From positions 124,001 to 188,000 of the IMG/VR virus record IMGVR_UViG_3300048924_000100: a stretch of 64,000 nucleotides of DNA; one strand, written 5' to 3'. Shown one piece after another: positions 10,074 to 30,667 of this stretch. A program made the position numbers and the translations under genes. Position 1 is the stretch's first letter. The number at the start of each line of letters is the position of its first letter. Under the pieces are notes generated by a model, which was not told the DNA's origin, ran no database searches, and saw only the letters and a program-made list of their open reading frames with translations. The DNA is from a virus.

Positions 10074-10080
10074 AGAAGAA

Positions 10081-11178
10081 ATGGAATATGTAGAAGGCTC
10101 CTACCAACCTGACGGCGCCGGTTTTGGCATTCCTGATGTCCCACACGTCGAGATCATGTTCGATGCTCTGAACGACACTGCTGAGCAGATGGACGTAGCA
10201 GGCACCGAATCCCTCAGCCTGACCGCCGCTCAACACTACGCCCAGGGCGTGCTGATGTCTGCTGGTATCGTTACTGGTTCGCAAGTAGCTGGTACCGAAG
10301 GCGTGTTCTCGGCCATCGGCGACGGTTTCAAAGCTGTCTGGGAATACATCACCAAAACCCTGAAGTCGATCTGGGACTTCTTCTTCAACCGTGACAGCGC
10401 CAAAGACGCTGAAGTGGCCAAAGAAGCCTGCGCCGAGAACGCCGCTGAGTTGCAAGCAGCTGCTGCCGGTACCCAGGACGAAGCCACTGCTGACAAGCAA
10501 CTGAACGCTATGGCGACAGCTGCTGGTGGCGAAGGTGGTGACAAGGGCGTGGCTGAAGAAATCGCCAAGGGCAAGAAAGGCACTCTCGCTGAGAAGCGTG
10601 CTGCGGTCAAGGCTGCTCTGAAAGAAATGCCGAAGATGAACAAGAAGGCAGCTGCCGTCTTGAAGAAAGCGGTTGACGCTGCTGTTAAGGCGAAGAAAGC
10701 GTTCCTCGTTGACTTCACTTCTGCTCAAGGCCCTAAAGGCGGTAAAGAAGCTGCTGCTCACATGGCCAGCAACCAGGAGTTCACCGACGTTATTGCCGAC
10801 ATGGGTTCGGAAACTCTGAAGTTCACTTCCCGTGACGCTCAGTTCCTGACCAAGCTGGAACACGCGATCGACATCAAAGATGCCAACGCCGCCATCCAGT
10901 TCAGCAAAGACTGCGCTGCCAACATCGTATCCCTGAAAGCGTTCTCCGACGTCTTCAAGGGCATGAAGGGCAAGATCGATAAACTTCTGTCCACTGCAGA
11001 AGCCAAGATGAAGAAAGCGAAAGAAGCCAAAGACAAGGCCGAATTGCAGAAAGACATCGCCGCGCTGCGTACCATCACTACCGGTCTGGTTCGTGTATCG
11101 AAACTGATCGAAGCGAACTACAGCCGCGTGACCGAAGCGTCCAAAGCACTGAACCATGTGTTCGGTATTGCTGCTTAA
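10081..11178 (+). CDS. Internal head (inner-body-like) protein, proteolytically processed, 365 residues
   Basis: Member of a family of seven proteins here that share G-x-E sites near the N-terminus followed by a hydrophobic helix. Sites are at 41-43 (GTE before SLSL) and 71-73 (GTE before GVFSAI). After the second site residues 74-102 form an aromatic amphipathic helix, then a long Ala/Lys/Glu helical body. phiKZ inner-body proteins are packed in the head and cut by the prohead protease after a short motif ending in Glu; the same logic is inferred here. C-ending codons and a strong ribosome site point to high expression. It is followed by a terminator. Confidence 0.7.
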   Translation: MEYVEGSYQPDGAGFGIPDVPHVEIMFDALNDTAEQMDVAGTESLSLTAAQHYAQGVLMSAGIVTGSQVAGTEGVFSAIGDGFKAVWEYITKTLKSIWDFFFNRDSAKDAEVAKEACAENAAELQAAAAGTQDEATADKQLNAMATAAGGEGGDKGVAEEIAKGKKGTLAEKRAAVKAALKEMPKMNKKAAAVLKKAVDAAVKAKKAFLVDFTSAQGPKGGKEAAAHMASNQEFTDVIADMGSETLKFTSRDAQFLTKLEHAIDIKDANAAIQFSKDCAANIVSLKAFSDVFKGMKGKIDKLLSTAEAKMKKAKEAKDKAELQKDIAALRTITTGLVRVSKLIEANYSRVTEASKALNHVFGIAA

Positions 11179-11213
11179 TAACGTCTGTAAGGCGTTCTGA
11201 GCATCGATCGTGA

Positions 11214-11256
11214 ATAAACCCTCCTACTCCCCGTCAAAGGGAGTAGGAGGGTTTAT
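11214..11256. terminator. Bidirectional hairpin terminator, 18-bp perfect stem
   Basis: Stem 11214-11231 pairs with 11239-11256 without mismatch between convergent genes. The plus-side tail is TATAGCTGCTTTAC (11254-11267), repeated after the terminator at 17289, and it includes the stop codon of the minus-strand gene. Confidence 0.88.
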
Positions 11257-11267
11257 AGCTGCTTTAC
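11254..11267 (+). repeat. Conserved terminator tail, copy 1
   Basis: TATAGCTGCTTTAC, identical to 17329-17342; related tails are at 3990-4003 and 48988-48998. It lies just after perfect hairpins and includes the stop codon of the convergent minus-strand gene. Confidence 0.6.
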
Positions 11268-13135
11268 GCCGCTTCTTTCAATACTTCTGGTAATACTTGT
11301 GCTTGTCGTGCTTCACGTTCTGCTTTGGCTTTCTCTGCACTTTCACGCAGTTGCTTCAACATGTCCCCCATACCCAGTTCTTCCAGACCTTTCTCGAAGT
11401 CGGATTGCAGGTTGTCTGCTTGTGGGAAACGGAACAGGTCATGACCCAAGCCCATGGCATTCGCCTGAGTACTGCTGGCATAGTTCACGGCTATCTCCCG
11501 GAACTTCATGTCGTTAGCACCCTGAATGGCATAGACCTCCATCTGAGTCGTTTTGTTACTGACGTTATCGGCCAGTGTACCTGTTGGGTAAGCACCTTCA
11601 ACGTCAAGGTCAGACGTGCTACCACGACCCGAACTGAGTACATCGTCCAGACCAATAAACATCGCTCGGCCCATGTCTGCGTTCTTCTCAGTATCGAGGA
11701 GGGCAATCCAGTTGTCGAGGGTTGGTAGACGATCAGTAAAGGTCTTGTCACGTTTAGACGGCGTACTGCCCCAGACGTAACCATGCTCACGTGCAAGGAA
11801 CGACAGGGTGTCCGAGATCAGACGTGGCTGTGAAACAAAGTTGAAGTATTCCGAATAACGCAACAGCATTGGAATCGACAGCGAGAAGTCAAGCGTTTTC
11901 TCGTTGATCTCTTCAATAGGCCAGTTGTCGGCGATGTTGTACATCGAATACAGGTAAGGATGGTCCTTCTGCATATATCGATGCCACTGACCCGAGCCTG
12001 GACCCTTGCTCATGCCCTCTTCGGTATACAGCTTACCCTTGACCTCTTCACGAGTAGCAATGGCCTCCAGCGAGTAACCCTCGAGCTTACCCGACGAGAA
12101 ACGTTTAATAGCATAACCCGACATAGCGTCAGCCCATTGCCACTTAGCCGGAGTACGAACCGTTGGAAACTTCTCTTGTGGTTCCAGAGGCGTCTTGTCG
12201 CCGTTCTCCTTGATCTTGTGCGTACGACCAAGGTTCAGCTCGTAACTGCGATACTCTTTCGGTACCGATGGATCACTGTAGACGTCTGCGAGGTTATAAC
12301 CTTCACACCTGAGAGCGCGTTCACAGGCTTCCATGTCATAACCAGCGTTCCAGCTCAGTACCCAGTCCGGCTCCCATTCGTGGAACTTCTGAATGCACGC
12401 AAAAGCAATCTGACCAGGAGTATCGAACAACTCATACTCGATCACACACTTGCGACGGTCAACGTGTTCCTGGAGGTATTTCTCTTCAGCTGCTTTTAAC
12501 CGAGCAATGATATCAGCATCAGTTAATTTAACCTTGGGGTCAATCCTGTCCTGACGACTCTGGAACCAGCTGCGTTGTCCTGCCCAGTAAGCTTTACCCT
12601 TCATAGTGACCGAGGCCATCATGATTGGCTTGACTTCACCCGGAAACTCCATATCCGCTTCAACGTCGAACGCTGCTACCGAATAGGGTTCCTTTTCCTG
12701 ATACTCTGCGTACTTCTTAAAGAACTGTTGCTTGAAGTGCACCGGTGTGGTCTGGTCCAAACCAAACACGTACTGGATACCCTTGCCCGACTTGACGTCA
12801 TAGATCGTTGCACCGCGGTCAGCTACCCCAAATAGCTGCTTGCGTACTTCAAACGGAATGTCACGACGGGTGCTGCGGTATTCACGGCAGTAACGTTCTT
12901 CCAGATAGTCTTTAGGCTGGTTGAACTTGCGATGCTGCTCTTTGACCAGGTGCCAAGGCTGCTTATAGTTCTCGTAAGACTGGAACACATTGCTGCGACT
13001 TCCGTCTTCGTGAATGTTGGTAATCTTTGCACTCAGCAAGTCTTTGCTCTTGTCAAAACGATGCTCTGTGTAGATGGCATGTTTGCAGACACGAGCAATA
13101 ATAGGTGATAGGTTTTCTGCGACAGTTTGTGTCAT
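11264..13135 (-). CDS. Family B DNA polymerase, exonuclease and motif A part (split or truncated)
   Basis: 623-residue protein with the three proofreading motifs of family B polymerases: Exo I AFDVEAD (D157, E159), Exo II WNAGYDMEA (N263, D267) and Exo III YNIAD (Y399, D403). Palm motif A is DVEGAYPT at 511-518, followed by an NVSNKTT stretch typical after motif A. Motif B (K...NSxYG) and motif C (YxDTD) are absent and the protein ends about 105 residues after motif A in a Glu/Lys/Ala tail. The remaining palm and thumb must lie on another polypeptide if the enzyme is active. Start at 13135 is chosen for the AGGA upstream; 13150 is possible. It is a single minus-strand gene between virion blocks. 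Confidence 0.8.
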   Translation of the reverse strand: MTQTVAENLSPIIARVCKHAIYTEHRFDKSKDLLSAKITNIHEDGSRSNVFQSYENYKQPWHLVKEQHRKFNQPKDYLEERYCREYRSTRRDIPFEVRKQLFGVADRGATIYDVKSGKGIQYVFGLDQTTPVHFKQQFFKKYAEYQEKEPYSVAAFDVEADMEFPGEVKPIMMASVTMKGKAYWAGQRSWFQSRQDRIDPKVKLTDADIIARLKAAEEKYLQEHVDRRKCVIEYELFDTPGQIAFACIQKFHEWEPDWVLSWNAGYDMEACERALRCEGYNLADVYSDPSVPKEYRSYELNLGRTHKIKENGDKTPLEPQEKFPTVRTPAKWQWADAMSGYAIKRFSSGKLEGYSLEAIATREEVKGKLYTEEGMSKGPGSGQWHRYMQKDHPYLYSMYNIADNWPIEEINEKTLDFSLSIPMLLRYSEYFNFVSQPRLISDTLSFLAREHGYVWGSTPSKRDKTFTDRLPTLDNWIALLDTEKNADMGRAMFIGLDDVLSSGRGSTSDLDVEGAYPTGTLADNVSNKTTQMEVYAIQGANDMKFREIAVNYASSTQANAMGLGHDLFRFPQADNLQSDFEKGLEELGMGDMLKQLRESAEKAKAEREARQAQVLPEVLKEAA

Positions 13136-13149
13136 GATTTTATCCTGCA

Positions 13150-13156
13150 TTTTATG
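13150..13156 (+). promoter_or_regulatory. Weak candidate late promoter (TTTTATG)
   Basis: ATTTTATG lies 63 bp before the metallopeptidase gene, a spacing like that of the GTATTTTATG copies at 9332 and 39038. It overlaps the 5' end of the minus-strand polymerase gene region. Only the match and spacing support it. Confidence 0.25.
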
Positions 13157-13218
13157 CCCGCTTTTAGCGCTATATCAATGGCGTCCCAGTATTAAATATC
13201 TTTGAGGAGTACAGGTGC

Positions 13219-14598
13219 ATGATCTCAATGGACTTTTTGAAACGACCCGTCGGAGGGTTGGAGTTCATTAACTTCCAGTCTTCTGACTTTTATCGCAAGA
13301 TGGTGACATTCCTCGAAAGTCAGATTAGTCCCGACGGTGTTCTGAGTAAAGAAGCCATTCCTGGCATCAAATCCCTCATCGAGGAATACACTGGCTTCAA
13401 GAACATCGACATGAAGCTATCCAACAGCGGTAACTTCTCTGTTGACGTTGGCTACTTCTCCCCCAACCACGTGTTCAATCACCAGTTGGCGGATGAGCTG
13501 CTGAAACCTACTCAGTCGACCCTGTACCGCTGGTTTACCCAGAACAAGGACAAGGTGTTCAAAGGTGGGATTGATTACTCGACAGGTAAAGTACAAGGTA
13601 GCTTCCAGACCTTGCCTGTTACCTTCCTGATCAACCCGGATCTCAGCGCCACCTTCCCAGCCGACAAGATAAAGAAGTTCGGCGTTCCGTTGGCAGGTAT
13701 CTTGGCGGGTGCGATTGCCCACGAATGCGGTCACGTGTTCAGCGGTTGCATGATGCTGCTCACAGTCGCGTCTGACAACCTTTATCTGAAAGCCTCCCTG
13801 CAGTACTACCGTGGGGCCAACGACGCCTCAGATCGCGTTGTAGTGCTCAAGGACATCGCTTCGCTGCTGGACGTTCCGCCTGCTAAACAGGGTGAGCTGC
13901 AAAAGCTGGCACAAGACCAAGATGACAAAACCCTCTTCCTCTACTTCGACAAATTAATCGCCCAACGTAATATGCGACGCAGTTTGTCGGTTGGGGTAGA
14001 GGCCATGTCCTCTGAAGTTGTGGCCGATATGTACGCCATTCGTATGGGTTGCGAGAAGGGCGTTATCGCGGCTATCGGTATCCTGACTGACCAGGGTTGC
14101 ATCCAGACCGTGGTCAATGGCCTGCTGATCGCTGCTGTGGTAACCCTCGTTGCGCTGCCGGGTTGGATCGCTCTGACCGTCACCATGGGTATTGCAGGAG
14201 CACTGTTCACGGCGATGGTCTTCTACATGTTCATCTTCGTCATGAGCTACTTCAGTAAAGGCTACTCGGGTGTCTACAACGCCGACCATCGTCGTTTCGA
14301 AGATGCTGTGCGTCAGTTGATCCAGAAGCTGAAAGAAGACACCTCGATGCCAGAGAAAGACAAACTCGCTTTGGCAAACGAAGTGCAAGATCTGTTGGTG
14401 CATGCCAACAATCTGCGTCCTTGGTATGAGAGTACCGTGATCCACCGCTTCATGGGTTGGGTGTTCAGCCAGGCTGACTTCAAAGCCCAAGAAGTTGAAC
14501 ACTACACTTCCGTGATTGCCAACCACGAGGTGAATACCATTGCTGTCAAACTGGCCAACCTGAAAGCTCGTCGTGATCCGGAAGGTATCGAAGCTTAA
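13219..14598 (+). CDS. M48-like membrane zinc metallopeptidase, 459 residues
   Basis: HECGH at 168-172 is the HExxH zinc motif, lying in a hydrophobic helix. EVVADMYAIRMG (E266) about 95 residues later matches the ExxxAD-type third zinc ligand of M48 peptidases such as HtpX and Ste24. Two hydrophobic segments at about 299-318 and 323-345 look like a membrane hairpin. M48 enzymes cut membrane or misfolded proteins at the inner membrane; the target here is unknown. GAGGAG is well spaced before the start. It leads a plus-strand unit that includes an internal head protein, so a role in virion maturation, entry or host membrane change are all possible. It is not a typical prohead protease, which is a serine enzyme in this group. 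Confidence 0.65.
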   Translation: MISMDFLKRPVGGLEFINFQSSDFYRKMVTFLESQISPDGVLSKEAIPGIKSLIEEYTGFKNIDMKLSNSGNFSVDVGYFSPNHVFNHQLADELLKPTQSTLYRWFTQNKDKVFKGGIDYSTGKVQGSFQTLPVTFLINPDLSATFPADKIKKFGVPLAGILAGAIAHECGHVFSGCMMLLTVASDNLYLKASLQYYRGANDASDRVVVLKDIASLLDVPPAKQGELQKLAQDQDDKTLFLYFDKLIAQRNMRRSLSVGVEAMSSEVVADMYAIRMGCEKGVIAAIGILTDQGCIQTVVNGLLIAAVVTLVALPGWIALTVTMGIAGALFTAMVFYMFIFVMSYFSKGYSGVYNADHRRFEDAVRQLIQKLKEDTSMPEKDKLALANEVQDLLVHANNLRPWYESTVIHRFMGWVFSQADFKAQEVEHYTSVIANHEVNTIAVKLANLKARRDPEGIEA

Positions 14599-14603
14599 CC
14601 ATT

Positions 14604-14620
14604 CCCCTCCTTGCAAGGAA
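14604..14620 (+). promoter_or_regulatory. Second copy of the palindromic leader
   Basis: Exact copy of the 17-bp leader at 10057-10073, placed 8 bp before the start of the 131-residue gene. The AAGGA site lies in the second half of the palindrome. Confidence 0.5.
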
Positions 14621-14627
14621 CTCTACC

Positions 14628-15023
14628 ATGTCGCACTTGATCCACGTTCTTGAATACAAGAAAGCCCTGACCGAAAAAGGTATCACCTGCCCGATCGAAC
14701 AGAGCAAGCTGCTGGCCGAACCTTTCGCTCGCGCACTGATCCGCCGTTCGTACCGTGTTGGTGGCTGGACCACCGAGATGGATGAGAAGGCTTGGGCTCA
14801 GCTCGACAAGTGGAACAACGTGTCGCCTATCCCAGCGCCTCTGATCCACAAGACCGCCCAGGTTCGCATCGGCATGATCAACGGTGCCATGATGACCACT
14901 GGTACCCTGCCGTGCAAGAGCGGCTTCACCACTGTCGTTAACGACGTTGACGTAGGCGAACTGCCTGCTTGCACCGTCCTGACCGATTACCTGGTAAAAG
15001 AGCTGGAGGCTAACCGTGAGTGA
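14628..15023 (+). CDS. Unknown 131-residue protein
   Basis: Small soluble protein with three cysteines and no recognised motif. Highly C-ending codons and a strong ribosome site within the palindromic leader suggest high expression. Its end overlaps the GTG start of the next gene by 8 bp, so the two are coupled. Virion role inferred from context; function unknown. Confidence 0.72.
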   Translation: MSHLIHVLEYKKALTEKGITCPIEQSKLLAEPFARALIRRSYRVGGWTTEMDEKAWAQLDKWNNVSPIPAPLIHKTAQVRIGMINGAMMTTGTLPCKSGFTTVVNDVDVGELPACTVLTDYLVKELEANRE

Positions 15024-16530
15024 TCCAGCTACTACTAGCATCGACGAGTACCAACAGATCGGTAACTCGAGCCCAGTTGATTCCTATCAGCCAGGCGAAA
15101 ACAAACAACGGGTAGACCTGACGGAATACTACCAGGTCAGTGATCAGAACAACGCGACTGTTATGGTCATGGGTTCTGAAGAGCTGGCCCTCGGTCGTCT
15201 CTCCAAGCAGGTGGCTCGTCACCTTAAACTGCAGGGCGTTGAGAAGTATGACCCGTTTCCTTCGGAGCGTAATGCTCGCATGGGTGCTGAGGGTTTCTTC
15301 AGCGCTATCTACGAGGGCTTCAAGACCTTCGTTGAAACCATTATCAAATATATCCGTATGGCTATCGACTGGGTTGTCGACATGGTCAAGGGTATCTTTG
15401 GTTTCCGCAAAAGTGAGCGGATCACCAAGGCCATCGATGATTCACTGCCAGCACTGAAGAAAGAGTTCGAAGACACGCTGATCAGCTTCGGTTTCAACAT
15501 TGCTGAATACAACGTCGAGAACTTCCTCGGTAACCTACCGGCTGGCCAGGATCGCGTTGCCCAGGTCCACTTGCTGAAGAACAGGCTTGATGGCGATATC
15601 GAGCAGATCAAGAAACTGGAAATGGCTATCCCGCTGATCCAGCAGATCAACGCCAAGATACATCAGGCAGGTGACAAGGTTACCCAGGCTCAGAAGAGAC
15701 TGAAGAAGGTTATCCTCGACGAGTACAACCGTTCGCGCGTTCGCGGCAAAGCGGGTGATCGTGTAGGCGGTGGGGATTCCTCCGAAGTACAGCAACTCTT
15801 CAAGGTCATCCTGGAAACATCGTTGTCTCTGGACGTTAAAGAAATCGCTGGCCTGATGCAGAAACTGTATAAGGATCTGTACAGCCTTGATTTCGCAAAC
15901 GACGAGCTGGCTAACAAGTTTGACCAGGTCCAGAACCGTCTGAAGGCCGAAGTGCAGAATGCCACTGCAACGGTCAAGGGTATCACTGTTAGCGAGACGC
16001 TGGTAACGATCCAGGCGCTCAACGTACGCTACCAGGAGCTGGCTGGCGACGAGTACGACATCTCGAAGGTCGACTGGAAGGCTATCGGCGGAATCATCGT
16101 TAAAGATGATGCTGAGAAGATCTCCCACATGGCCGGGTACTACAACACACCAGGCTTGCTCGCTGCTTATCAGGAGTTGTCGGTTGATATCCGCAACTAC
16201 ACTCAGTGCTGCTACAGCATCAGCAAGGAAGTACTGCGTGTTGAGAAGCAGATCGTTAGTTTGGTTGAGTGGTACGGTCGCATTCACTGCTACTACTACA
16301 ACGGCGTGATAGGCGACATCGATGCGTGCCAGAAAGTGGCCGCTGAAGCTCGCGCCAAGGGCCTCAGCCCAATCGTCACTGCCCAGACCTTTATCAGGGA
16401 CGCGGACGCCAAAACGTTCTTCGAGAAACTGACAGCTAACGTTAACTTAGCCGTTGAACATGACATTGGTGGGTTGAAGACTAGCATCAACAACTTCACC
16501 AAACAAATCGGGGCAGGTAAATTGCTATGA
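15016..16530 (+). CDS. Internal head (inner-body-like) protein with three cleavage-type motifs, 504 residues
   Basis: GTG start with GGAGG upstream. G-x-E motifs lie at 53-55 (GSE), 74-76 (GVE) and 90-92 (GAE before GFFSAI). After the last, residues 93-130 form a long hydrophobic amphipathic helix, as in its paralogues. The rest is a largely helical, coiled-coil-rich body. By analogy with phiKZ inner-body proteins it should be packed in the capsid and trimmed by the prohead protease; this is inference from motif layout and paralogy. It overlaps both neighbours by 4-8 bp. Confidence 0.68.
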   Translation: MSDPATTSIDEYQQIGNSSPVDSYQPGENKQRVDLTEYYQVSDQNNATVMVMGSEELALGRLSKQVARHLKLQGVEKYDPFPSERNARMGAEGFFSAIYEGFKTFVETIIKYIRMAIDWVVDMVKGIFGFRKSERITKAIDDSLPALKKEFEDTLISFGFNIAEYNVENFLGNLPAGQDRVAQVHLLKNRLDGDIEQIKKLEMAIPLIQQINAKIHQAGDKVTQAQKRLKKVILDEYNRSRVRGKAGDRVGGGDSSEVQQLFKVILETSLSLDVKEIAGLMQKLYKDLYSLDFANDELANKFDQVQNRLKAEVQNATATVKGITVSETLVTIQALNVRYQELAGDEYDISKVDWKAIGGIIVKDDAEKISHMAGYYNTPGLLAAYQELSVDIRNYTQCCYSISKEVLRVEKQIVSLVEWYGRIHCYYYNGVIGDIDACQKVAAEARAKGLSPIVTAQTFIRDADAKTFFEKLTANVNLAVEHDIGGLKTSINNFTKQIGAGKLL

Positions 16531-17273
16531 GCCGAGAAGCCATGTGGGAAGAGATCGTCAAACTGAAGGATGTGGCTATTGTCACTACCCAGACGTACAC
16601 CGACGAACTCGATGCTCTGATTGCAGCAATGGATGAGGAGGGTCTTCCTCTGCCTGTTGCAACAAAGATCATCCGGGGTATCTGGGGTACCAGCTCTCGC
16701 GCTAACGCTTTGATGGTGCGTTTGTCGGACTGTTTCCCTGAGACCAACAAGGAAGTGGTGCTGTACGCAGGTCTGCCTATCCAGGAGGCTCGCAAGCAGT
16801 TGGGTCAGTTGGATGAGTCTAAGGACTACTTCAAGCTGATCTACACCTACATCAGCGACGCGGTCAACACGACCATGCAGCAGTTGGTGGACGCTGGCTT
16901 TACTGTTGACGCTCAGGCACGACTGAACGAGTTCCGTTGCGAGGTATTGCAGTACGCCGCGTACACGGATAGCTACTTCTACGAGGTTGAACCGTCGCTG
17001 CGTGATGGCACGGTAACTTCGTGGGATCAGCTCACTCGTGTTCCGGATATCGTGATCAACGGGGACTACCTGTTCGTCAACGACTTCAAGGAAACCCTGG
17101 CTAAGGCCCACGATACCTATCTGGAGAGTGCTTTCTATCCAGATCTGAAGATGTCGGGCTACAGCCTCAAGGACTTCTCCTGGCGTACCAGCGACATGAC
17201 CAGCAAGATTCAGATGCCGTTCCTGTTCGCACAGCACCTCAACGCGAAGTACCCTGCTGTATCTGCTGAATAA
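16527..17273 (+). CDS. Unknown 248-residue protein
   Basis: Soluble helix-rich protein with no G-x-E sites and no recognised motif. ATGA overlap couples it to the internal head protein upstream. It ends the plus-strand unit before a terminator. A chaperone or structural partner is possible from coupling alone. Confidence 0.72.
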   Translation: MSREAMWEEIVKLKDVAIVTTQTYTDELDALIAAMDEEGLPLPVATKIIRGIWGTSSRANALMVRLSDCFPETNKEVVLYAGLPIQEARKQLGQLDESKDYFKLIYTYISDAVNTTMQQLVDAGFTVDAQARLNEFRCEVLQYAAYTDSYFYEVEPSLRDGTVTSWDQLTRVPDIVINGDYLFVNDFKETLAKAHDTYLESAFYPDLKMSGYSLKDFSWRTSDMTSKIQMPFLFAQHLNAKYPAVSAE

Positions 17274-17288
17274 GCTGTACCGGCCATA

Positions 17289-17322
17289 CCTACCCTACTT
17301 CCTTTGCGGGAAGTAGGGTAGG
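17289..17322. terminator. Bidirectional hairpin terminator
   Basis: A perfect 14-bp stem (17289-17302 with 17309-17322) between convergent genes. The tail TATAGCTGCTTTAC at 17329-17342 is identical to the one at 11254-11267. Confidence 0.85.
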
Positions 17323-17328
17323 GAGGCT

Positions 17329-21346: not shown

Positions 21347-21379
21347 TTCTCTGGCTCCCATTAATGAAGGAATTACAAA

Positions 21380-22501
21380 ATGATTGGCAACTTTCTAGGT
21401 TTGGGGTCTTACCTGCTGGACGTCGCAGCTAAGTTTTATCCCGATAGCAAAGACATAAACTCCGCCGCCAAGGTGGCGGGCCAGGTTCAACGTTCATACA
21501 ATGTGGTCTCGACCACCTCGGTGCATGAGAGTGCTAACCGCGCCATCATTGCTCCAATGGTAGGGATCGAACAAGGTCTTCTGCATCAAGAATTCATGAC
21601 AGACCTCATGCAGATCATTATGCTGCGTGACGTGGTTGCCACCCTGACTCACTTGGCGCTGGAAGGCACCGTGGCAATGGGTGTGCAGATCAAGGATGTC
21701 ATCGGTTCGATCAACCCGAACCGTGCCGGCATGTTGGCGCTCCAGGGCTGCGAAGCCTACGACAATAACATCCCGAACGGCGACAAGGCCGACAAAGAAG
21801 ACAAGGAAGACAAGAAACCCGACCAACACTTCGTCCAGGTTGGCGGCAAATCCATGCCAGACCTGAACGAGTACACTCCGCTGGCCGTGGGTAAAGTGGT
21901 TAACGCCACCCTCACCACCGAGCGTGGTAACAAGATCGACTTCCCGCTGACCTTCCGTCAGATCCCGGTCCCAATGTCGTTCAAAGATCTGAAGCGTACC
22001 TTCTCGGCCGCCAAGATCGAAGAAGGCTTCTTTGCTCGCCTGACCATGGCGAAGACCCGTGAGATCACTTACCCTGAATTCCTCAGCGGCAAGGACATCA
22101 TCAAAGAACGCTTCAACATCAAGAACGAAGAGATGTCGGGCTACTACAAAGAAGCCCTGCGTCGTGAAACCGGCAACAAGCTTACCGCCGTGCGTACTGG
22201 CGTGGTCAGCTTCAACAGCCTGGCGAACTCGTTCATCATCTCCCAGGAATCGGCTACCCAGCTGGAACTGGACCTCGGCAAACGTTTCCGCGACCCACGG
22301 TCCCGTGAAGGCATCTTCAAGGCTGTAGTGGCGAACACCATCGTGGTCTGCAACGAAGACCGCGGCATCTACACCTTCTACACCCACGGTAGCGACATGC
22401 CTGAGGTTTACACCCGCAAGGACATCGCTGTTAAATCCAAGAAAGATTCCGGCTCCAACACTCTGGCGGATCTGGTCAAGTTGCTTAACGGAGGCATGTG
22501 A
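21380..22501 (+). CDS. Probable virion protein, highly expressed, 373 residues
   Basis: N-terminal 30 residues are hydrophobic and Gly-rich; residues about 132-150 are a Lys/Asp/Glu-rich linker, and a mixed domain follows. One G-x-E (GIE near residue 62) sits before a Gln, so processing is possible but weakly supported. Strong bias to C-ending codons suggests abundant product. It heads the long operon containing five internal head proteins. Function unknown. Confidence 0.7.
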   Translation: MIGNFLGLGSYLLDVAAKFYPDSKDINSAAKVAGQVQRSYNVVSTTSVHESANRAIIAPMVGIEQGLLHQEFMTDLMQIIMLRDVVATLTHLALEGTVAMGVQIKDVIGSINPNRAGMLALQGCEAYDNNIPNGDKADKEDKEDKKPDQHFVQVGGKSMPDLNEYTPLAVGKVVNATLTTERGNKIDFPLTFRQIPVPMSFKDLKRTFSAAKIEEGFFARLTMAKTREITYPEFLSGKDIIKERFNIKNEEMSGYYKEALRRETGNKLTAVRTGVVSFNSLANSFIISQESATQLELDLGKRFRDPRSREGIFKAVVANTIVVCNEDRGIYTFYTHGSDMPEVYTRKDIAVKSKKDSGSNTLADLVKLLNGGM

Positions 22502-23382: not shown

Positions 23383-23893
23383 ATTCCGCCGGGGTAACAA
23401 CGGGTACGTCAGCGCTCACCTCGGTGATGGCGAGCTGGCGGCGATGTTCAAGAACCTCAAGTACCTCCGTCAGGATGCGTACCAGGACTTCGCGTTGATC
23501 ATGAAAGGCGACGTCACCATCGAAACCCTGCGTGAAGTGAAGGCCCTTACCGGCACCTCTTTCGCAGGGTGGATGGAAGTCAACTTCGACAGTGGCAAAG
23601 GGCCATTGGCTGACCTGGTCCGTGACATCATTCATTACTTGAATGGTCGTTGTGGTCATCGTCAGTTGATCACCTCGGTGGGTATCCAGGAGAACAAACT
23701 CGTGGATGCCAACACCACCCGTTACGGAACATACACCCCCACCACTCGCTCAGGCGGCCATGCGGCTTTCTTGCAGGATGGGGACACGGTCTTTGACAAC
23801 GACCTCTATCGTCTCATGGCTGGCGTAGGAGCGGGCGTCGTAGGGCGCATCTTCCTGCTCCTCGGAGGAGAGTCCTACTATGGGCCAAATTAA
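23375..23893 (+). CDS. Unknown 172-residue protein with C-terminal hydrophobic segment
   Basis: Start at ATG 23375, preceded by GAGG, overlapping the previous gene by 8 bp. The body is polar with one hydrophobic Gly/Val/Leu stretch near residues 148-165 that could cross or bind a membrane. No motif recognised. It overlaps the next gene by 14 bp, so it is translationally coupled. Confidence 0.7.
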   Translation: MPEFRRGNNGYVSAHLGDGELAAMFKNLKYLRQDAYQDFALIMKGDVTIETLREVKALTGTSFAGWMEVNFDSGKGPLADLVRDIIHYLNGRCGHRQLITSVGIQENKLVDANTTRYGTYTPTTRSGGHAAFLQDGDTVFDNDLYRLMAGVGAGVVGRIFLLLGGESYYGPN

Positions 23894-25193
23894 CCAACAG
23901 CTACAGTTGGCGGCTGAAATGGCGGCAATCTCTGCGGTTAAGTCTGCTGAGATTGTTAGCCTGGCTAAAGACACCGGTGACCTCGATCGTTTCCAGAACC
24001 GTTTGGAAGACTCTCGAGACCGTGTCAACATGGTGAAGGCGGTGCTGGAAGGCTCTGAACCGCATCATGTCACGCCAGAGCTGGCTAACGCCATGGATGC
24101 CTCCCTGGCACGCTCCAATGTCGACATTCCTCCTGCAAGCGGCTTGGACGCTGTAGAAGGCGCGGAAGCACTCGGACGCACTCTGATGCCGGAAGATTAC
24201 CTCATGACCCGCCTGATGGGCTGTGAGAGCTTCCTGGCTGACTTCTTCCGTAAGTCCAAGGAAGTGGTTGTTCGCATCGACGTTGGCTTTAAAGAAGCTT
24301 ACATCGTGTTCACGCAGAACCAGGACAGTCTGCTGGAAGCGGTAGAGGCCCTGGAACACGGGATCGACGCCACTCCCAAGTTCGATGAGAACCGTGAATA
24401 CCTGTTGCTGGGTGCTCGTCTGTTTAACCTGTTCAAGGTAAACGGTCAGATCAGCGGCGACTGGACAGGTGACGTCAGCAAGCTGAGTCGCACTATCTCG
24501 GCTCTGAGTTCCAACTACTACCTGAACAGCAAAAACAACATGAATGCAGTCCTGAGCTATTTCGGCGGGTTTGCAGGCATGGATCAGGCTCTGGGGTTGG
24601 ATCGCTACCTGTCGCTGCCTTCTGCGCTGCCGTCGACGCCGTTCAAGGAATGCAACAAGCCTAACAAAGACTTCACCACTGGTCGTGTTACAGCGAAGCA
24701 GTCGGTTGAGTTGATGGGCGGTGCTTACTTCATTGACATCCGTCAGACCAAGCCGAACTACCGCATGCATACGGCGGAAGATGTCGAGCAGTTCCTCCAG
24801 ATCTACCTCAATGAGGAAATGACTGGTTTCGAGAACAGCTCCGAGATCGTCTATCCGAAGCTCGGTAACGAAGTGAAGAGTCTTTCTTCTCAGCAGATCA
24901 AGGTGATTGCGAAACACCTGAAAGAACTGTTGAAGGAATGGAGCAAGGTCTTCGAAGCCGGCGATAAGTTCAAGCTTACGGACAACGATTACAACGATGT
25001 TGCCAAGGGCATCTACGAGTCGCAGATGGATGACGATCTGAAGGATAAAGTCCTGACGGCGTTCTCGCAGATCGTGCGCAAGAACCAGATGGAGCTGCTC
25101 GCACTGCGGGCTACCCTGACCAGCTACCTGACCCTGGTGATTCACGGCTTGATTGAGCTGTCGAACCTCTCGGTTAAGGCCAACACTCCGTAA
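23880..25193 (+). CDS. Internal head (inner-body-like) protein, 437 residues
   Basis: G-x-E motifs at 58-60 (GSE), 94-96 (GAE) and 114-116 (GCE before SFLADF) end an N-terminal propeptide-like region. The following helix is aromatic, as in the paralogues, and the rest is a helix-rich body. GGAGGAG precedes the start. By analogy with phiKZ inner-body proteins it is likely packed in the head and trimmed by the prohead protease. First of five such genes in this operon. Confidence 0.62.
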   Translation: MGQINQQLQLAAEMAAISAVKSAEIVSLAKDTGDLDRFQNRLEDSRDRVNMVKAVLEGSEPHHVTPELANAMDASLARSNVDIPPASGLDAVEGAEALGRTLMPEDYLMTRLMGCESFLADFFRKSKEVVVRIDVGFKEAYIVFTQNQDSLLEAVEALEHGIDATPKFDENREYLLLGARLFNLFKVNGQISGDWTGDVSKLSRTISALSSNYYLNSKNNMNAVLSYFGGFAGMDQALGLDRYLSLPSALPSTPFKECNKPNKDFTTGRVTAKQSVELMGGAYFIDIRQTKPNYRMHTAEDVEQFLQIYLNEEMTGFENSSEIVYPKLGNEVKSLSSQQIKVIAKHLKELLKEWSKVFEAGDKFKLTDNDYNDVAKGIYESQMDDDLKDKVLTAFSQIVRKNQMELLALRATLTSYLTLVIHGLIELSNLSVKANTP

Positions 25194-25212
25194 GGAGCAA
25201 AGGAGTCTGGTT

Positions 25213-26223
25213 ATGAGTACGAAGCAGCTGTATCGCAACTGCCTGGAGAATCGGCTCGAGTCTGTGACCACCGAGAACGAACTCTGGGTAGTGGGTCGTC
25301 AACTGATCGCTGCCCCTAACCGGGTAACGGTTCGTGTTGATGGCAACGAAGAGTTCATGGATAACGTCAAGGAGTTAGGCTCTGGTCTGCTCTCGGCTAG
25401 CAAATGGGTAGGTGGTAAAACTATCGACCTGTTCGGCAAGGCCCTTGGCGCTGCTGGTTCTGGGTTGTATCGCGCTTTCAGTGACAACGATACTTTGATT
25501 CGCAAGCTGATGCAGAACTTCAGCAAGGTCGAAGATCATGAGCTGGAACTCAGTAAAACCACGATTGCCCTGTTGACTGCTAATGGTGACATTGGCCATA
25601 TTGGGCATGATATGGACACTTTGCTGAGTGCGTTGGATTCGCTGGACAAGCACAGCAAAGATATTCTGAGTTACCTGGACAAGCAACTTCTCGTTGCCCG
25701 CAAACTCAAGGGGGTCTCCTCTGCTGAAAACATCTTCGCTATCGTGGAGGAGTTCGAGGCGGTTAAGTACCCTACGTTCAAGCTGCCGCATTCAAAGGGC
25801 ACTTCGACGTACTCGGATACCCTGCCAGGTGGCAAGGTCTGGGAATGCGTGTACGGTGATGGCGCCAGCCCGAAATATGTTATAGGTGGAGACGCACCTG
25901 CTGAGGCTGGGTCCTCTGTGACGTTGTCCAAGTCTGAGGTCAGTGCAATCCTGACCAAACTGGACAAAATCAACTCTATGCACAAACGCTTGAAATCGTC
26001 CTACGACGGCTACTTGAGCTTTATCAAGAGCTGGGGTGAGATGGTTAAGTCTGTCGACGCTAACCTGAGTAAGCTGGATAAGGTTAGCTCAAGCGCTATG
26101 TCAGAGGCTGAGAAACTCCTCGGCGGTGAGGCAAATGCCTTGGCATTCTATAGCGGATTCACTCCTCGGGTGGTCAGCTACACCGACAGGTACATTCATG
26201 GTGTGCTTGGTGTTTTCGCTTGA
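25213..26223 (+). CDS. Internal head (inner-body-like) protein, 336 residues
   Basis: Start at 25213 with AGGAG upstream. A single G-x-E (GNE, 44-46, before EFMDNV) precedes a Gly-rich amphipathic stretch and a helical, Ser/Lys/Leu-rich body. It is the most divergent member of the family in this window, as the helix has several Gly residues. It follows its paralogue by 19 bp. Confidence 0.58.
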   Translation: MSTKQLYRNCLENRLESVTTENELWVVGRQLIAAPNRVTVRVDGNEEFMDNVKELGSGLLSASKWVGGKTIDLFGKALGAAGSGLYRAFSDNDTLIRKLMQNFSKVEDHELELSKTTIALLTANGDIGHIGHDMDTLLSALDSLDKHSKDILSYLDKQLLVARKLKGVSSAENIFAIVEEFEAVKYPTFKLPHSKGTSTYSDTLPGGKVWECVYGDGASPKYVIGGDAPAEAGSSVTLSKSEVSAILTKLDKINSMHKRLKSSYDGYLSFIKSWGEMVKSVDANLSKLDKVSSSAMSEAEKLLGGEANALAFYSGFTPRVVSYTDRYIHGVLGVFA

Positions 26224-26275
26224 TGTTTAATTAAACACTCAAATTTCCTTCGTTAACGAAAAAGGATACAACGTA

Positions 26276-27547
26276 ATGAGCCTGAATCTTCTTGATATGT
26301 ACGCCGGTGCCGAAGAACTGGAACTGGAAGGTGGCGCTGGTGGCGCCGCAGTGGTTGACGCCGTTGAAGACGTCGTTAAAACCGAAATCGCCGAAGTGAC
26401 CGTCGCTATCGAAGAGCAATCCCAGCAGGTTGAACAGCTGGTTGCCAAGGTCGACGAGCTGGAAGAAGCCGTTGAAGAAGCGACTGAAGTCGTGGAAGGC
26501 ATGGAGTCGCTGATCAACTCCGGCAACTTCAACAGCCTGGCATTCGCCAACCTGTACAACCGCGGCGTGAAGCTCGGTAACAAGCTGGGCGCAAACATCG
26601 GCGGCGAGCGCATGGGCGCTGAGTCCATCACCGACGCTTCGACCGCTCAGATGTATGCTCGTCAGGGCATCGAAAGCATCATGGACTCCATCAAGGAATA
26701 CGGCCGTAAGGCTGTAGAGTTCATCAAGCACATCTTCAACACCGTCATCAACTTCTTCGTGTCGATCTTCGACAAGGCCGCGGCCATCGAGAAGCGTGCT
26801 GACCAGCTGAAGAAACGTCTGGAAGACGGCGCCAAGATCAAAGAGCAAGTTAAACTGGGCAGCTGGAACGTCTGGGTTGACTACGCCAAGAACGGTCTGG
26901 CCGGCGTTAAGCCAAAAGGCTTCGACGCTTCGCAGGGCGCTCTGGCCAAACTGACCGAGCTGGGCAAGAACGTCAACGGTATCGAACTGGAAGACTTCAA
27001 GTCGGCTTACAGCGGCGTGATCGCTGCCATCAAGTCTGACGCCAAGTCGGCTGGCAAGTACAACGAGAAGAAAGCTGGTACTCACGACGTGCTGATCGGC
27101 GTCTTGAACGGTATCCGCATCCAGGCTTCTTACATCGACAGCGACATCAAAACCATGGCCGACGCAGCTAACGCCGCTCGTTCCCTGAAGTTCGTTGTGA
27201 TGAAAGACCCGGAAGCCAAGAAACTGACCAGCGGTTCCGACGTCAAAGCCAAGGCCGACAAGTCTGCCCTGCTGAAAGAAATCGGCGAAATCCGTGCTAT
27301 CAGCAAGACCCTGCGCGAAGGCAAAGTGGCCAAAGCTTTCAGCGCTGCTGAACGCGACCGCGTGATCGGTTCCCTGAACGCGATCAAAGCTGGCGACAAC
27401 GACAAAGCGTCGGAAGTCAACGGCAAAGTGACCCTGGTTAAGGCAGTGTACAGCTCGACTTCGAGCGTCGGCACCAACCTGACCAAAGTCATCGTCAACG
27501 CTGCTGGCGCTGCGCTGGACTGCGTTGCGGCTCACATCTCCTTCTAA
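26276..27547 (+). CDS. Abundant internal head (inner-body-like) protein with four G-x-E sites, 423 residues
   Basis: G-x-E motifs at 11-13 (GAE), 75-77 (GME), 114-116 (GAE before SITD) and 131-133 (GIE before SIMDSI). Residues 21-77 are very acidic and coiled-coil-like, as in scaffold-type propeptides. After the last site comes a hydrophobic amphipathic helix to about residue 165, then a Lys/Ala-rich helical body. Codon bias is among the strongest in the window, so it may be the main inner-body protein. A 53-bp AT-rich leader with AAAGGA precedes it and a terminator follows. Confidence 0.7.
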   Translation: MSLNLLDMYAGAEELELEGGAGGAAVVDAVEDVVKTEIAEVTVAIEEQSQQVEQLVAKVDELEEAVEEATEVVEGMESLINSGNFNSLAFANLYNRGVKLGNKLGANIGGERMGAESITDASTAQMYARQGIESIMDSIKEYGRKAVEFIKHIFNTVINFFVSIFDKAAAIEKRADQLKKRLEDGAKIKEQVKLGSWNVWVDYAKNGLAGVKPKGFDASQGALAKLTELGKNVNGIELEDFKSAYSGVIAAIKSDAKSAGKYNEKKAGTHDVLIGVLNGIRIQASYIDSDIKTMADAANAARSLKFVVMKDPEAKKLTSGSDVKAKADKSALLKEIGEIRAISKTLREGKVAKAFSAAERDRVIGSLNAIKAGDNDKASEVNGKVTLVKAVYSSTSSVGTNLTKVIVNAAGAALDCVAAHISF

Positions 27548-27582
27548 GGCGATGTTGCTGCGGCTGTAACACCGTAAGGTAG

Positions 27583-27612
27583 CTACTAAGGGCGAGCAAT
27601 CGCCCTTAGTAG
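27583..27612 (+). terminator. Hairpin terminator
   Basis: A perfect 13-bp stem (27583-27595 with 27600-27612) and GCAA loop, followed by TCTTATGG and a T-rich stretch. It separates the abundant internal head protein from the next gene, so read-through or a new promoter (TTATG at 27615-27619) must serve the rest of the operon. Confidence 0.85.
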
Positions 27613-27688
27613 TCTTATGGCTGCATTTTGTTTTTTCAAGGGATGCTATAGGTTTTGCTACATATCCTTTTTAACAGGTACTTTTACC

Positions 27689-28741
27689 ATGACGCAACCA
27701 GTGCTTGCTCGTCGTTTTATCAATACACCTACTGTTGAAGCACTCTACAACGCCGAGAATCCTGAAAGCGTTGTGGAAGCCTCGGATGACAAGATCGATG
27801 ATCTGTCGGATGAATACAACAAGGTGTCTGGAACTGAATCACTCTACTACCAGTACGTCTTCTCACACATCCCTCGCCAGCATGATCTTAACCGTGCGGG
27901 CAACGAAGGTTTCGTGAGCTGGATCGGTGATATGGTGAATGCTCTAATCACTGCTGTGAAGAACTTCTTCAAGTGGGTGTTCAGTTTCTTCACCGGTAAG
28001 AAAGAAGTAGCCGCTCGTCAGAATAAGGACCTCTTGGCACAACTGGATAAGAGTGGTGTGCGGAAACACTTCACCCACTACCCCAACGGTTACATGACCC
28101 TGTGGGCCAGTAAGGCCAAGGTGCCTAACAACCTGGACTGGGTACTCAAGTCGGTTGACGACCTCGAGAAAGCCGCAGCTAAGGTTAAGGCTTACGTTAA
28201 GGAAGTCGGCGACGTCGTAGAGAAGGCCGAAGCAGCCTTTGTGGGCAAACAACTGAGCACGGCCAAGGAGAAGTTCGATAAACTCTTCAAGGATCACCAC
28301 GCTAATCTGGTGAAGATCTTTGGTGGCGATCCAGCTGCCTTTGTAGGCGGGACAACTGTCTCTGTCAACGCACACGGTAAGGTGGTAATGAAGGTAGACC
28401 CTGATCTACTGGAAGCTGAGAAGAACGCCGGCTACCTGCCTAACGAAACCAAGACCCGTGAGATCGCCAAGGCATTGGACGGTACCAACAAGGTCTTCGC
28501 TGACGTTATCAATGATGCAGTCAAGTTGGAGAACGTGTTCGTCAAGAACCTGCAAGGGAGCCTGGCATTCGCCAAGAGCACAGAACTCGAGAATGAGGCT
28601 GTTGCTAAATCCATGGCAAGCGATCTGAACGAACTCATCCGAAACGGCATGGCCGGTATCAAGATTCTGGAGACCCTGATCTTTAAGGTCTATCAGTCTG
28701 TGTACCTGATTGCCAAGTCCAGCATCGAGACCAAAGGGTAA
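27689..28741 (+). CDS. Internal head (inner-body-like) protein, 350 residues
   Basis: G-x-E motifs at 48-50 (GTE before SLYY) and 71-73 (GNE before GFVSWI). The next 30 residues form an aromatic hydrophobic helix (FVSWI, then FFKWVFSFF), and a Lys-rich helical body follows. The start at 27689 is an internal ATG after an AT-rich leader with AGG upstream. Function by analogy with phiKZ inner-body proteins. Confidence 0.66.
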   Translation: MTQPVLARRFINTPTVEALYNAENPESVVEASDDKIDDLSDEYNKVSGTESLYYQYVFSHIPRQHDLNRAGNEGFVSWIGDMVNALITAVKNFFKWVFSFFTGKKEVAARQNKDLLAQLDKSGVRKHFTHYPNGYMTLWASKAKVPNNLDWVLKSVDDLEKAAAKVKAYVKEVGDVVEKAEAAFVGKQLSTAKEKFDKLFKDHHANLVKIFGGDPAAFVGGTTVSVNAHGKVVMKVDPDLLEAEKNAGYLPNETKTREIAKALDGTNKVFADVINDAVKLENVFVKNLQGSLAFAKSTELENEAVAKSMASDLNELIRNGMAGIKILETLIFKVYQSVYLIAKSSIETKG

Positions 28742-28747
28742 GCCACT

Positions 28748-29230
28748 ATGCGCTTGAATTGCTTTAATAAAACGCTGTTGGTCGCTAAGGTCATGGAGCA
28801 ACAAGGCATCCAAGGAATGAACCCTCGTTTCGGGGCTGGTCGTTCTGTTAGCGATACCGTGTTCAGCTATCTTGAACTGGGTAGCAGCGGCACCGGGTTG
28901 CTTATTGACAAGGTTGACCTGGGCGAACTGTTTAAAGGTATCCCTCAGGACATCTCTGGTCTGACCTTCGATACTCCAGAACAAGTGAGCCTGGATGCGT
29001 TGCAGGTATTGGTAGACGACAAGGTAGAAGAATGCATTGTTGTCGGCGAAAGCCCCCTTACCGGTCAGGCAGATGACTTGTCGGTCCATTTCTACAACTG
29101 GTTACGTCTCGTTGGTTTAAGCGACCTGTCCATCTTCGAAGTAGAGCTGGGTACGAGTGAGGGCAACCTCTACGTAACGGCTCGTCGGGCTGCGTACTAC
29201 TGCGGTACCGTGATCATCAAGTATCAATGA
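28748..29230 (+). CDS. Unknown 160-residue protein
   Basis: Mixed alpha/beta protein with four cysteines and no G-x-E helix module. It lies 6 bp after one internal head gene and 9 bp before the next. No motif recognised; an assembly partner is possible from position only. Confidence 0.7.
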   Translation: MRLNCFNKTLLVAKVMEQQGIQGMNPRFGAGRSVSDTVFSYLELGSSGTGLLIDKVDLGELFKGIPQDISGLTFDTPEQVSLDALQVLVDDKVEECIVVGESPLTGQADDLSVHFYNWLRLVGLSDLSIFEVELGTSEGNLYVTARRAAYYCGTVIIKYQ

Positions 29231-29239
29231 GGTGTGAGC

Positions 29240-30667
29240 ATGAATTTGTACTTTGAGCTGGGGCTGGTCAGTCTGCTGCTGTCCGGCAAAGCTGGAAAGC
29301 TGGACGCTGAAAAGAATCCAGTGATGGTTGAGTTACTCCGTTCCATGGGTCTCGACTACGTTGTTGACGCTGATAGCACTGACGAGAGTTCTGCTAAAGA
29401 ACGTCTCTTCCGTATCGTGGCTGCGCTGGAAGACCGTCTGGCGTATTACGACGGCAGCGAGCTGCTGGTTAACTGGCCGGTGAATCAGTACCTCAATGAG
29501 TTGCTGCAGAACGTTCACACCGGTGACTTCACTCCAGAACGCAATGTGGCCATGCAGGTCTGTGCGTTGGGTAACAAGTCGTCTGACAATATGTCGGGCA
29601 GTGCGGTTACCGAGTGGATCGAGTTCTCTCACAAGAACCTGCGCTACTTCATTGATCTCTACGAGGGCCATGAACAGCCTAACATCGTAGCGATCCAGTC
29701 GCAGATCCGTTCGATCGAATACGCCGAGAAGGTGTTGAACATCGTTGACGTATTTGTGACCAGCCGCTTGGGTATGTTCATGGGTGTGGAGGAGTTTCAT
29801 CCTTCGCAACTGGAAGACTTGCCTGAGCCATCTGAGCCGGACTTCGAGCCACCGGAAGACTGCCAGAAGAATGCTGACTGCGACTGCGGTTGTATTGCGG
29901 ATCACACGCTTCAGCTGATTCAAGGTATGGAAGACTACCTGAACGGTGTAAACAGTTATGCGGCTAACTACCTCATCGGTGCCGCCAGTGGCCACAATGC
30001 CCGTATGAGCGCTGTAGAAGGCACAGAAGGCGCAATCCTTGATGGTATCAAGGAAATGGCAATGAAGGCCTGGGACATGATCACAGAGTCCTTTAAAGCC
30101 ATCCAGGGGTGGTTCTCCTCTAACGAGAGCACCTCTGATACCAAAGCGGTAGCCGAAGCAGCGGAATCCAACAAGAAGGACCTAGTAGCGGCCAAGGAAG
30201 GCAGCGGGGATCAAATCAACCCTCAGGCCAAAGCTAGCCTGGTAAAGCTGGCAGCTGAAGCAGATCCATCGGGTGCGTTCAGCGCCATTGTGGGTAGCCT
30301 CAACACCAAGGCTGACGCAGCATCCTGCCTGGACAAGCTCCTGGGTCTGTTGAAAAAGCAAGAGGGCCCAGCAGGTGGTTTGGACGCTCTCCTGGATCTG
30401 GCAAAGGATAAGCTTGCCGAACTGAAGACTGCCGCCAGCAATGTGACTGGTAAAGATGAAAAGAACAAGGAAGTTGTGGGTACTGCTAAGAAGGGTACAC
30501 AGGAAAGTATTGCGGCGGCCAAAGAAGCGGTTGCACGAGTGAAAGAGAAAGTTACCGCGCACAAGAAACTGGTGTCTGGTATCCGCAAAGCAGTTAGCGG
30601 GATCAACACCAAGATCTTCCCAGCTGTAGAGCCTAAAGAAGCGCCTAAAGGCGATAAGAAGGAGTAA
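29240..30667 (+). CDS. Internal head (inner-body-like) protein with long propeptide, 475 residues
   Basis: Six G-x-E motifs: 72-74, 143-145, 182-184 (GVE before EFHP), 229-231 (GME), and 261-263 (GTE before GAILDGI) are the clearest. If cut at the last, more than half the protein would be removed, leaving an amphipathic helix and a Lys/Ala/Glu-rich C-terminus. A cysteine cluster (CxxxxxCxCxC, about 208-218) lies in the propeptide and could bind metal. The N-terminal part may instead be a separate functional domain. ATG at 29240 follows a GAGG. Confidence 0.62.
   Translation: MNLYFELGLVSLLLSGKAGKLDAEKNPVMVELLRSMGLDYVVDADSTDESSAKERLFRIVAALEDRLAYYDGSELLVNWPVNQYLNELLQNVHTGDFTPERNVAMQVCALGNKSSDNMSGSAVTEWIEFSHKNLRYFIDLYEGHEQPNIVAIQSQIRSIEYAEKVLNIVDVFVTSRLGMFMGVEEFHPSQLEDLPEPSEPDFEPPEDCQKNADCDCGCIADHTLQLIQGMEDYLNGVNSYAANYLIGAASGHNARMSAVEGTEGAILDGIKEMAMKAWDMITESFKAIQGWFSSNESTSDTKAVAEAAESNKKDLVAAKEGSGDQINPQAKASLVKLAAEADPSGAFSAIVGSLNTKADAASCLDKLLGLLKKQEGPAGGLDALLDLAKDKLAELKTAASNVTGKDEKNKEVVGTAKKGTQESIAAAKEAVARVKEKVTAHKKLVSGIRKAVSGINTKIFPAVEPKEAPKGDKKE

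Follow-up and report, generated by a model that had tools for sequence, protein, structure and literature searches.

Genes and features at the locus

We analysed a 64,000-base window of viral DNA, bases 124001-188000 of a 214,198-base virus record (IMG/VR IMGVR_UViG_3300048924_000100); coordinates refer to the window unless marked as record coordinates. The window belongs to a 214-kb EL-like jumbo phage, as judged from the order of its genes and the similarity of its proteins. Its major capsid protein shares 59-61% identity with the RisingSun, Joad and EL counterparts, and the block 13219-41287 corresponds nearly gene for gene with EL, RisingSun, FishSpeaker, Miami, VP4B, N1M2 and PS1. Seven open reading frames (ORFs), named here by their start positions, were present at 10081, 15016, 23880, 25213, 26276, 27689 and 29240. 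Their products carry conserved Gly-x-Glu (G-x-E) triplets, followed by an amphipathic helix, and we propose that they are precursors of inner-head proteins that are cut after G-x-E by the prohead protease of the phage. The predicted cuts (numbered by the glutamate, with the last base before the cut in brackets) and the helices are listed below; hydrophobic moments are ranked among the 18-residue windows of the region's proteins.

10081..11178 (+), member 1, 365 residues; predicted cuts after GTE-43 (..10209; then SLS) and GTE-73 (..10299; then GVFSAI)
10300..10467 (+), amphipathic helix GVFSAIGDGFKAVWEYITKTLKSIWDFFF.. predicted to be freed by the cut, helical at residues 79-129 in the AlphaFold2 model; hydrophobic moment 0.60, top 0.6%
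15016..16530 (+), member 2, 504 residues, EL gp054, at the gene position of SPN3US gp47; predicted final cut after GAE-92 (..15291; then GFFSAI)
15292..15396 (+), amphipathic helix GFFSAIYEGFKTFVETIIKYIRMAIDWVVDMVKGIFG; hydrophobic moment 0.65, top 0.24%
23880..25193 (+), member 3, 437 residues, PF12699; predicted cuts after GAE-96 (..24167; then ALG) and GCE-116 (..24227; then SFLADF)
25213..26223 (+), member 4, 336 residues, weak PF12699; predicted cut after GNE-46 (..25350; then EFMDNV)
26276..27547 (+), member 5, 423 residues, PF12699, counterpart of SPN3US gp53/gp54 and phiKZ gp93; predicted cuts after GAE-13, GME-77, GAE-116 and GIE-133 (..26674; then SIMDSI)
26675..26779 (+), amphipathic helix SIMDSIKEYGRKAVEFIKHIFNTVINFFVSIF; hydrophobic moment 0.69, top 0.03%
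27689..28741 (+), member 6, 350 residues; predicted cuts after GTE-50 (..27838) and GNE-73 (..27907; then GFVSWI)
27908..28012 (+), amphipathic helix GFVSWIGDMVNALITAVKNFFKWVFSFF; hydrophobic moment 0.57, net charge +4
29240..30667 (+), member 7, 475 residues, with a long N-terminal domain predicted to be removed by cutting; predicted cuts after GME-231 (..29932) and GTE-263 (..30028; then GAILDG)
30029..30133 (+), amphipathic helix GAILDGIKEMAMKAWDMITESFKAIQGWFSS; hydrophobic moment 0.52

Conservation of the G-x-E triplets

Homologs of each gene were collected from other phages (four to seven per gene) and from IMG/VR relatives and were reduced to <85% identity, giving up to 24 per gene. In the seven proteins, 11 of 29 G-x-E triplets were kept in at least 90% of the homologs, versus none of 185 other x-x-E triplets (Fisher P = 4e-11). 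The result for 15016 was discounted, because the IMG/VR scan that fetched many of its relatives used a pattern containing the motif; without this protein, 10 of 25 G-x-E triplets were kept. The middle residue was variable in every family while G and E were invariant or almost so. Both residues were retained in 16/16 (site 43) and 15/16 (site 73) homologs of 10081, 20/20 and 15/20 of 23880 (sites 96 and 116), 21/21 of 25213, 10/14 and 14/14 of 27689 (sites 50 and 73), and 13/16 and 16/16 of 29240 (sites 231 and 263). For 26276 the counts were 19/20 (GAE-13), 20/20 (GME-77), 19/20 (GAE-116) and 20/20 (GIE-133), and all four pairs were invariant in the alignment with other phages. GAE-92 of 15016 was kept in 24/24, a figure biased by the fetching pattern; G90 and E92 were invariant in 8 annotated phages.

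Some of these proteins retain little else. Across the annotated phages, the invariant residues of 15016 were only M1, L35, N86, G90, E92, F94 and W119; those of 27689 in seven homologs were only M1, G71 and E73; and 29240 had just seven invariant columns (M1, G229, E231, L234, G261, E263 and D268). Chance G-x-E triplets of the same proteins (10081-151, -223 and -244; 29240-74, -145 and -184; 23880-60) showed no conservation and served as an internal negative control. From 315 site instances in eleven proteins, we derived the consensus V-x-G-x-E|[SGA]-[FLIM]. Raw motif counts were modestly above the expectation from composition, and genome-wide enrichment was weak (z = 1.6), a count partly spoiled by a longest-ORF caller that chose antisense ORFs. 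Counts alone were thus weak evidence, and the conservation tests were used instead.

Alignment with mapped cut sites and further putative substrates

Cut sites of the Salmonella phage SPN3US have been mapped by mass spectrometry (PMC10052503 Table 2), including gp53 at AQE-125|GWKETL and gp54 at ARE-137|SLWDDI (PMC10052503). GIE-133|SIMDSI of 26276 aligned exactly with both. Four further head proteins, outside the seven, carry conserved G-x-E sites.

13219..14598 (+), additional putative substrate, SPN3US gp45 counterpart; predicted cut after GLE-15 (..13263); no amphipathic helix after it
21380..22501 (+), additional putative substrate, at the gene position of SPN3US gp50 / phiKZ gp89; predicted cut after GCE-125 (..21754); no helix after it
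39107..41287 (+), major capsid protein (PF25620, E 3e-138); predicted propeptide with GVE-52 and GIE-102 (..39412)
49014..52100 (-), portal, by synteny and by alignment with SPN3US gp81 and phiKZ gp129; predicted cuts after GNE-203, GLE-249 and GAE-308

GLE-15|FINFQ of 13219 (kept 21/21) aligned with the mapped site ASE-20|SIGFQD of SPN3US gp45. In the capsid protein, GVE-52 and GIE-102 were each kept in 8/8, and GIE-102 aligned with the mapped ATE-130 of SPN3US and with GLE-163 of phiKZ. The three portal sites were kept in 6/6 each; GNE-203 aligned with SPN3US ATE-161, and the final SPN3US portal site, AQE-254, lay near GAE-308 in the alignment, not exactly there. GCE-125 of 21380 was kept in 18/18, and its propeptide is close in length to that of SPN3US gp50 (127), with the exact residue not aligned; 15016 and 21380 are tied to SPN3US substrates only by gene position and similar propeptide length. 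At the aligned mapped positions, alanine in SPN3US corresponds to glycine in the EL-like phages.

The protease and its probable specificity

The phage encodes an S80 prohead protease at record 69527-70387, outside the window (PF20034 Peptidase_S80, E 6e-60; phiKZ gp175 homolog, E 3e-20). Two sites are conserved in its tail, AG[LC]E at 207 and G-x-E|[SA] at 250, and these G-x-E sites were present in this phage, EL, RisingSun, Miami and PS1. Near the first site phiKZ has ALE and SPN3US has AQE, and across both sites SPN3US has AQE/ATE. Glycine stands at the protease tail as well as in the substrates, and therefore enzyme and substrates agree on glycine. The residue aligned in the capsid proteins of the wider group is G, A or S; the capsid proteins of OBP, D6 and SXP01 have G-x-E|[ST]F, as in the EL group.

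The sequence-only reading had placed G-x-E before residues such as GVFSAI or SFLADF in all seven genes and had taken it for a cleavage site; the ORFs, the motifs and the 11/29 versus 0/185 conservation bear out the first point, and the alignment of the 26276 site with mapped SPN3US sites argues for the second. The motif is not confined to the seven genes named in that reading: judged by sequence, the rule very probably extends to capsid protein and portal, to 13219 and 21380, and to the C-terminus of the protease. Its contrast with an S/A-x-E motif of phiKZ relatives was incomplete, because the published motifs are S/A/G-X-E for phiKZ, S/A/G/T-X-E for 201phi2-1 and A-X-E for SPN3US (PMC5694885). 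Glycine thus has a precedent in the phiKZ motif, and what holds of the contrast, and appears new, is the apparent exclusivity of glycine across a phage group. G-x-E is very probably the cleavage rule for the whole EL-like clade. A literature search, itself incomplete, found no paper on G-x-E-only specificity.

The helix after the predicted cut

In most members the post-cut helix had a hydrophobic moment of 0.51-0.69, within the top 0.03-2.8% of windows. The mean moment of the seven helices was 0.58 versus 0.29 for random stretches and was never reached in 20,000 draws. Amphipathicity was kept in homologs (mean moment 0.46-0.65), and for the most part the helices lack proline and are rich in F, W and Y. 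The capsid protein, portal, 13219 and 21380 have no such helix behind their predicted cuts. In the AlphaFold2 model of 10081 (predicted local distance difference test, pLDDT, 83), both predicted cut sites lay in loops, and a helix of 51 residues came after the second.

In this phage the helix is amphipathic and not transmembrane. An amphipathic helix stands at the same place in SPN3US gp53/54 and phiKZ gp93, which makes the helix probably ancestral. In SPN3US gp47, a transmembrane helix is predicted directly behind the cut, and host-membrane contact was proposed for it (PMC5694885).

One extended phiKZ_IP family

A Pfam scan matched PF12699 (phiKZ_IP) above the cut-off in 23880 (134.8 bits, E 6e-39), 26276 (118.3) and, barely, 25213 (29.0 versus a cut-off of 27; E 8e-7); 10081, 15016, 27689 and 29240 gave no PF12699 match over the cut-off. 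Profile-profile comparison linked all seven: 10081-29240 (probability 99.4, 132 columns), 10081-27689 (97.9), 26276-29240 (97.9), 23880-26276 (97.4, 369 columns), 26276-27689 (96.9, 252 columns), 10081-15016 (96.5, 59 columns), 15016-26276 (96.3, 97 columns), 26276-10081 (96.0) and 25213-27689 (94.7, 191 columns). These links span the cut-plus-helix module. The predicted cleaved head proteins that lack the helix, 13219 and 21380, had no profile match to any of the seven. These comparisons indicate that the seven proteins form one extended phiKZ_IP family, of which Pfam recognises three. In a profile search of solved structures, 26276 found phiKZ gp93 (8y6v, E 0.004).

The sequence-only reading had described the proteins as internal to the head, and the three PF12699 members, phiKZ-like internal head proteins, agree with this. 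Its family of seven stands as a group related by profile links and has to be enlarged to at least eight members; the helix it described does follow the sites and is weaker in 25213 and 23880. The eighth member lies far from the head-gene cluster.

Record 32616-33620 (-), outside the window, eighth member, with GSE-28|SLDLT, GTE-57|GLLSDLGDGIAKMWEYIKKMFTSIWDFFF and the same helix

Relatives carry further copies: RisingSun has two extra paralogs, gp71 and gp72 (L017:22862-24863), and Vibrio phage VP4B has five tandem copies of the 26276 type (L021:14458-20960). In 29240, the N-terminal domain of about 230 residues (29240-29930) contains a cysteine cluster, CQKNADCDCGC. This domain is predicted to be cut from the helical body, and therefore its role, if any, would come before maturation.

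A single-sequence search of 26276 against the PDB found no real match, and the 10081 and 26276 models had no match to solved structures at E <= 0.001; weak fold matches to transporters, flagellins and the AhlB pore lacked significance and were set aside. Among predicted viral structures, the 10081 model matched its own clade and, weakly, internal head and virion proteins. Matches of the 10081 profile to ribosomal L17, Spike HR1 and similar proteins were judged to be artefacts of helical composition, and weak Pfam/NCBIfam matches to SNARE, perilipin and others were all below cut-off and were rejected.

Probable virion location, proposed function and alternatives

RisingSun gp59, gp66, gp68, gp73, gp71 and gp72 were detected by mass spectrometry in a crude lysate, gp68 being second only to the capsid protein and gp66 of low confidence (PMC6034870). 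The first four are the homologs of 15016, 23880, 26276 and 29240, the members that these data cover, and gp71 and gp72 are related. The EL counterparts of these four were found in EL virions (PMC6034870). For phiKZ, gp93, gp94, gp95, gp163 and gp177 are injected into the host (PMC10449902). In nucleus-forming phages, a membrane vesicle, formed in an unexplained way, surrounds the incoming genome and contains virion proteins that were injected, and the inner membrane is the reported site of capsid assembly (PMC12908238). A chimallin gene has been reported in EL (PMC10299810). Injection in phiKZ, the genome vesicle and capsid assembly at the inner membrane together lead us to favour the view that cutting equips ejected proteins with a helix that touches membrane, with packing inside the inner body about as likely.

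We therefore favour, with a probability of about 0.8 for the explanation as a whole, a processed family of ejection proteins and an S80 protease. The seven genes would encode precursors of inner-head (ejection) proteins of the extended phiKZ_IP family, each with an N-terminal propeptide of 46-263 residues bearing one to four consensus sites. During prohead maturation, the protease would cut after glutamate in the seven proteins, the capsid protein, the portal, the two head proteins and its own C-terminus. Most cuts would leave a mature protein that starts with an amphipathic, mostly aromatic-rich helix of 30-50 residues. Once mature, the proteins would remain alongside the DNA inside the head and most likely be ejected together with it; in the cell, the freed helix would most likely contact either the inner membrane of the host or the vesicle formed around the entering genome. 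The membrane role is plausible, at somewhat below even odds, and is put forward tentatively. Of these elements, the conserved motif, its match to mapped cut sites, the relationship of the seven proteins, the amphipathic helices and the protease gene were observed here.

Several observations weigh against this explanation. That the proteins of this phage are cut, sit in the virion, are ejected and act on a membrane is inferred, and all the peptide data come from relatives. The helices of 25213 and 23880 are the weakest. Hydrophobicity after the cut stays below the transmembrane level (19-residue Kyte-Doolittle means 0.36-1.43, <1.6), with a mean of up to 1.79 among 15016 homologs. The equivalent helices of phiKZ gp93 and SPN3US gp53/54 are amphipathic, more lysine-rich and less hydrophobic. 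The 26276 model is of low confidence (pLDDT 69) and puts residue 133 within a helix, so it gives no support for accessibility of that site. The post-cut helix might also serve only for packing, within the folded protein or within an oligomer.

Cleavage may occur as described and the helix be an assembly element, packing after loss of the propeptide in a helical bundle or oligomer of a DNA-wound inner body without membrane contact; we consider this about as probable as a membrane role. The mature bodies are predicted to be almost wholly helical, phiKZ relatives have inner-body masses, and the lysine-richer phiKZ and SPN3US helices resemble packing or DNA-facing helices. Moreover, phiKZ gp93 is resolved in 8y6v, an entry with three chains, and some of its copies, at least, must therefore be ordered. 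Packing fits less well with the highly aromatic and hydrophobic character of most EL-clade helices, the transmembrane helix of SPN3US gp47 at the equivalent place and the membrane vesicle around the incoming genome.

It is unlikely, in our view, that the seven proteins are unrelated helical proteins onto which a short cut-site-plus-helix module was shuffled, or in which it converged. The links 10081-15016 and 27689-29240 span only about 60 residues around the site, and the long N-terminal domain of 29240 is unrelated. In the shortest links the alignment hardly extends past the site and helix, and therefore sharing of the module without full homology is possible for 15016. However, the alignments 23880-26276, 26276-27689, 25213-27689 and 10081-29240 (369, 252, 191 and 132 columns) exceed the module, and the helix-free cleaved proteins do not match.

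Action of the helix before cleavage, tethering precursors and assembling proheads to the inner membrane until the cut frees the particle, appears improbable. It would suit the reported inner-membrane assembly of capsids (PMC12908238), but the capsid protein and portal lack the helix, and the propeptide precedes the helix and would not take it away, so cutting offers no obvious release of an anchor. Finally, invariance by itself names no function, but G-x-E is hardly likely to be a structural turn or ligand-binding motif, given that mapped cut sites coincide with it in four proteins (gp45, gp53/54, capsid protein and portal), that it recurs in unrelated folds (capsid protein, portal, protease tail) and several times per propeptide, and that S/G/A is preferred directly after E.

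Comparison with known systems

The closest system is SPN3US gp245 with its substrates gp45, gp47, gp50, gp53, gp54, gp75 and gp81, whose counterparts and gene order are conserved here. The predicted cuts here align with those in gp45, gp53/54, gp75 and at the intermediate site of gp81, and both systems have several sites per propeptide. The residue after the cut is serine in SPN3US and serine, glycine or alanine here. In SPN3US the motif is strictly A-X-E and valine is preferred at P4; in this phage it is G-x-E, with the valine preference at P5. SPN3US has two PF12699 proteins, and this phage has at least eight proteins of the wider family.

phiKZ gp175 (MEROPS S80 type, acting on the inner-body proteins gp93, gp94, gp95, gp162 and gp163) is a homologous protease, and gp93 is the 26276 counterpart. 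In gp93, too, the corresponding glutamate precedes an amphipathic helix, and the phiKZ capsid protein has the site GLE-163. In contrast, phiKZ accepts S/A/G-X-E and has serine (SLE) at the positions aligned with the 26276 sites. T4 gp21, with the internal proteins and Alt, is alike in the glutamate before the cut and in head-targeting propeptides (PMC5694885). The T4 propeptides differ in being 10-20 residues long and in the residue two places before the glutamate. To our knowledge, T4 gp21 substrates have no amphipathic helix module.

The finding thus extends a known cutting system and is not categorically new. What would be new is that the capsid protease rule of jumbo phages is glycine-specific throughout a clade, and that the inner-head family is larger. 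The finding predicts cut sites for virtually the entire head in EL, RisingSun, Miami, VP4B, N1M2, PS1, OBP and uncultured relatives, whose head proteins are annotated in publications as hypothetical or internal head proteins, and would unite hypothetical-annotated proteins in one ejected family. A-x-E, S/A/G-x-E and G-x-E would form a natural series in which a joint change of specificity in a protease and many substrates can be studied. The cut-freed helix is a concrete candidate for the unexplained vesicle around the incoming genome of nucleus-forming phages. The boldest version, in which the EL-clade protease switched to strict Gly-x-Glu, at least a dozen substrates followed, and the cuts arm at least eight ejected proteins whose helices jointly bind or reshape the host membrane that surrounds the entering genome as the early phage infection vesicle, is rather doubtful.

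Other observations

Three other proteins have a full-consensus site near the N-terminus and are candidate protease substrates: VTGDE-19|AL in a 1457-residue protein (record 61766-66139, +), VTGTE-44|AL (record 93012-94394, -) and VQGFE-26|AL (record 42230-43051, -). Very long antisense ORFs lie over real genes at 10027-11157 (-), 26231-27535 (-) and 39080-41368 (-), and because of this overlap, longest-ORF gene callers miss the capsid protein and several head genes.

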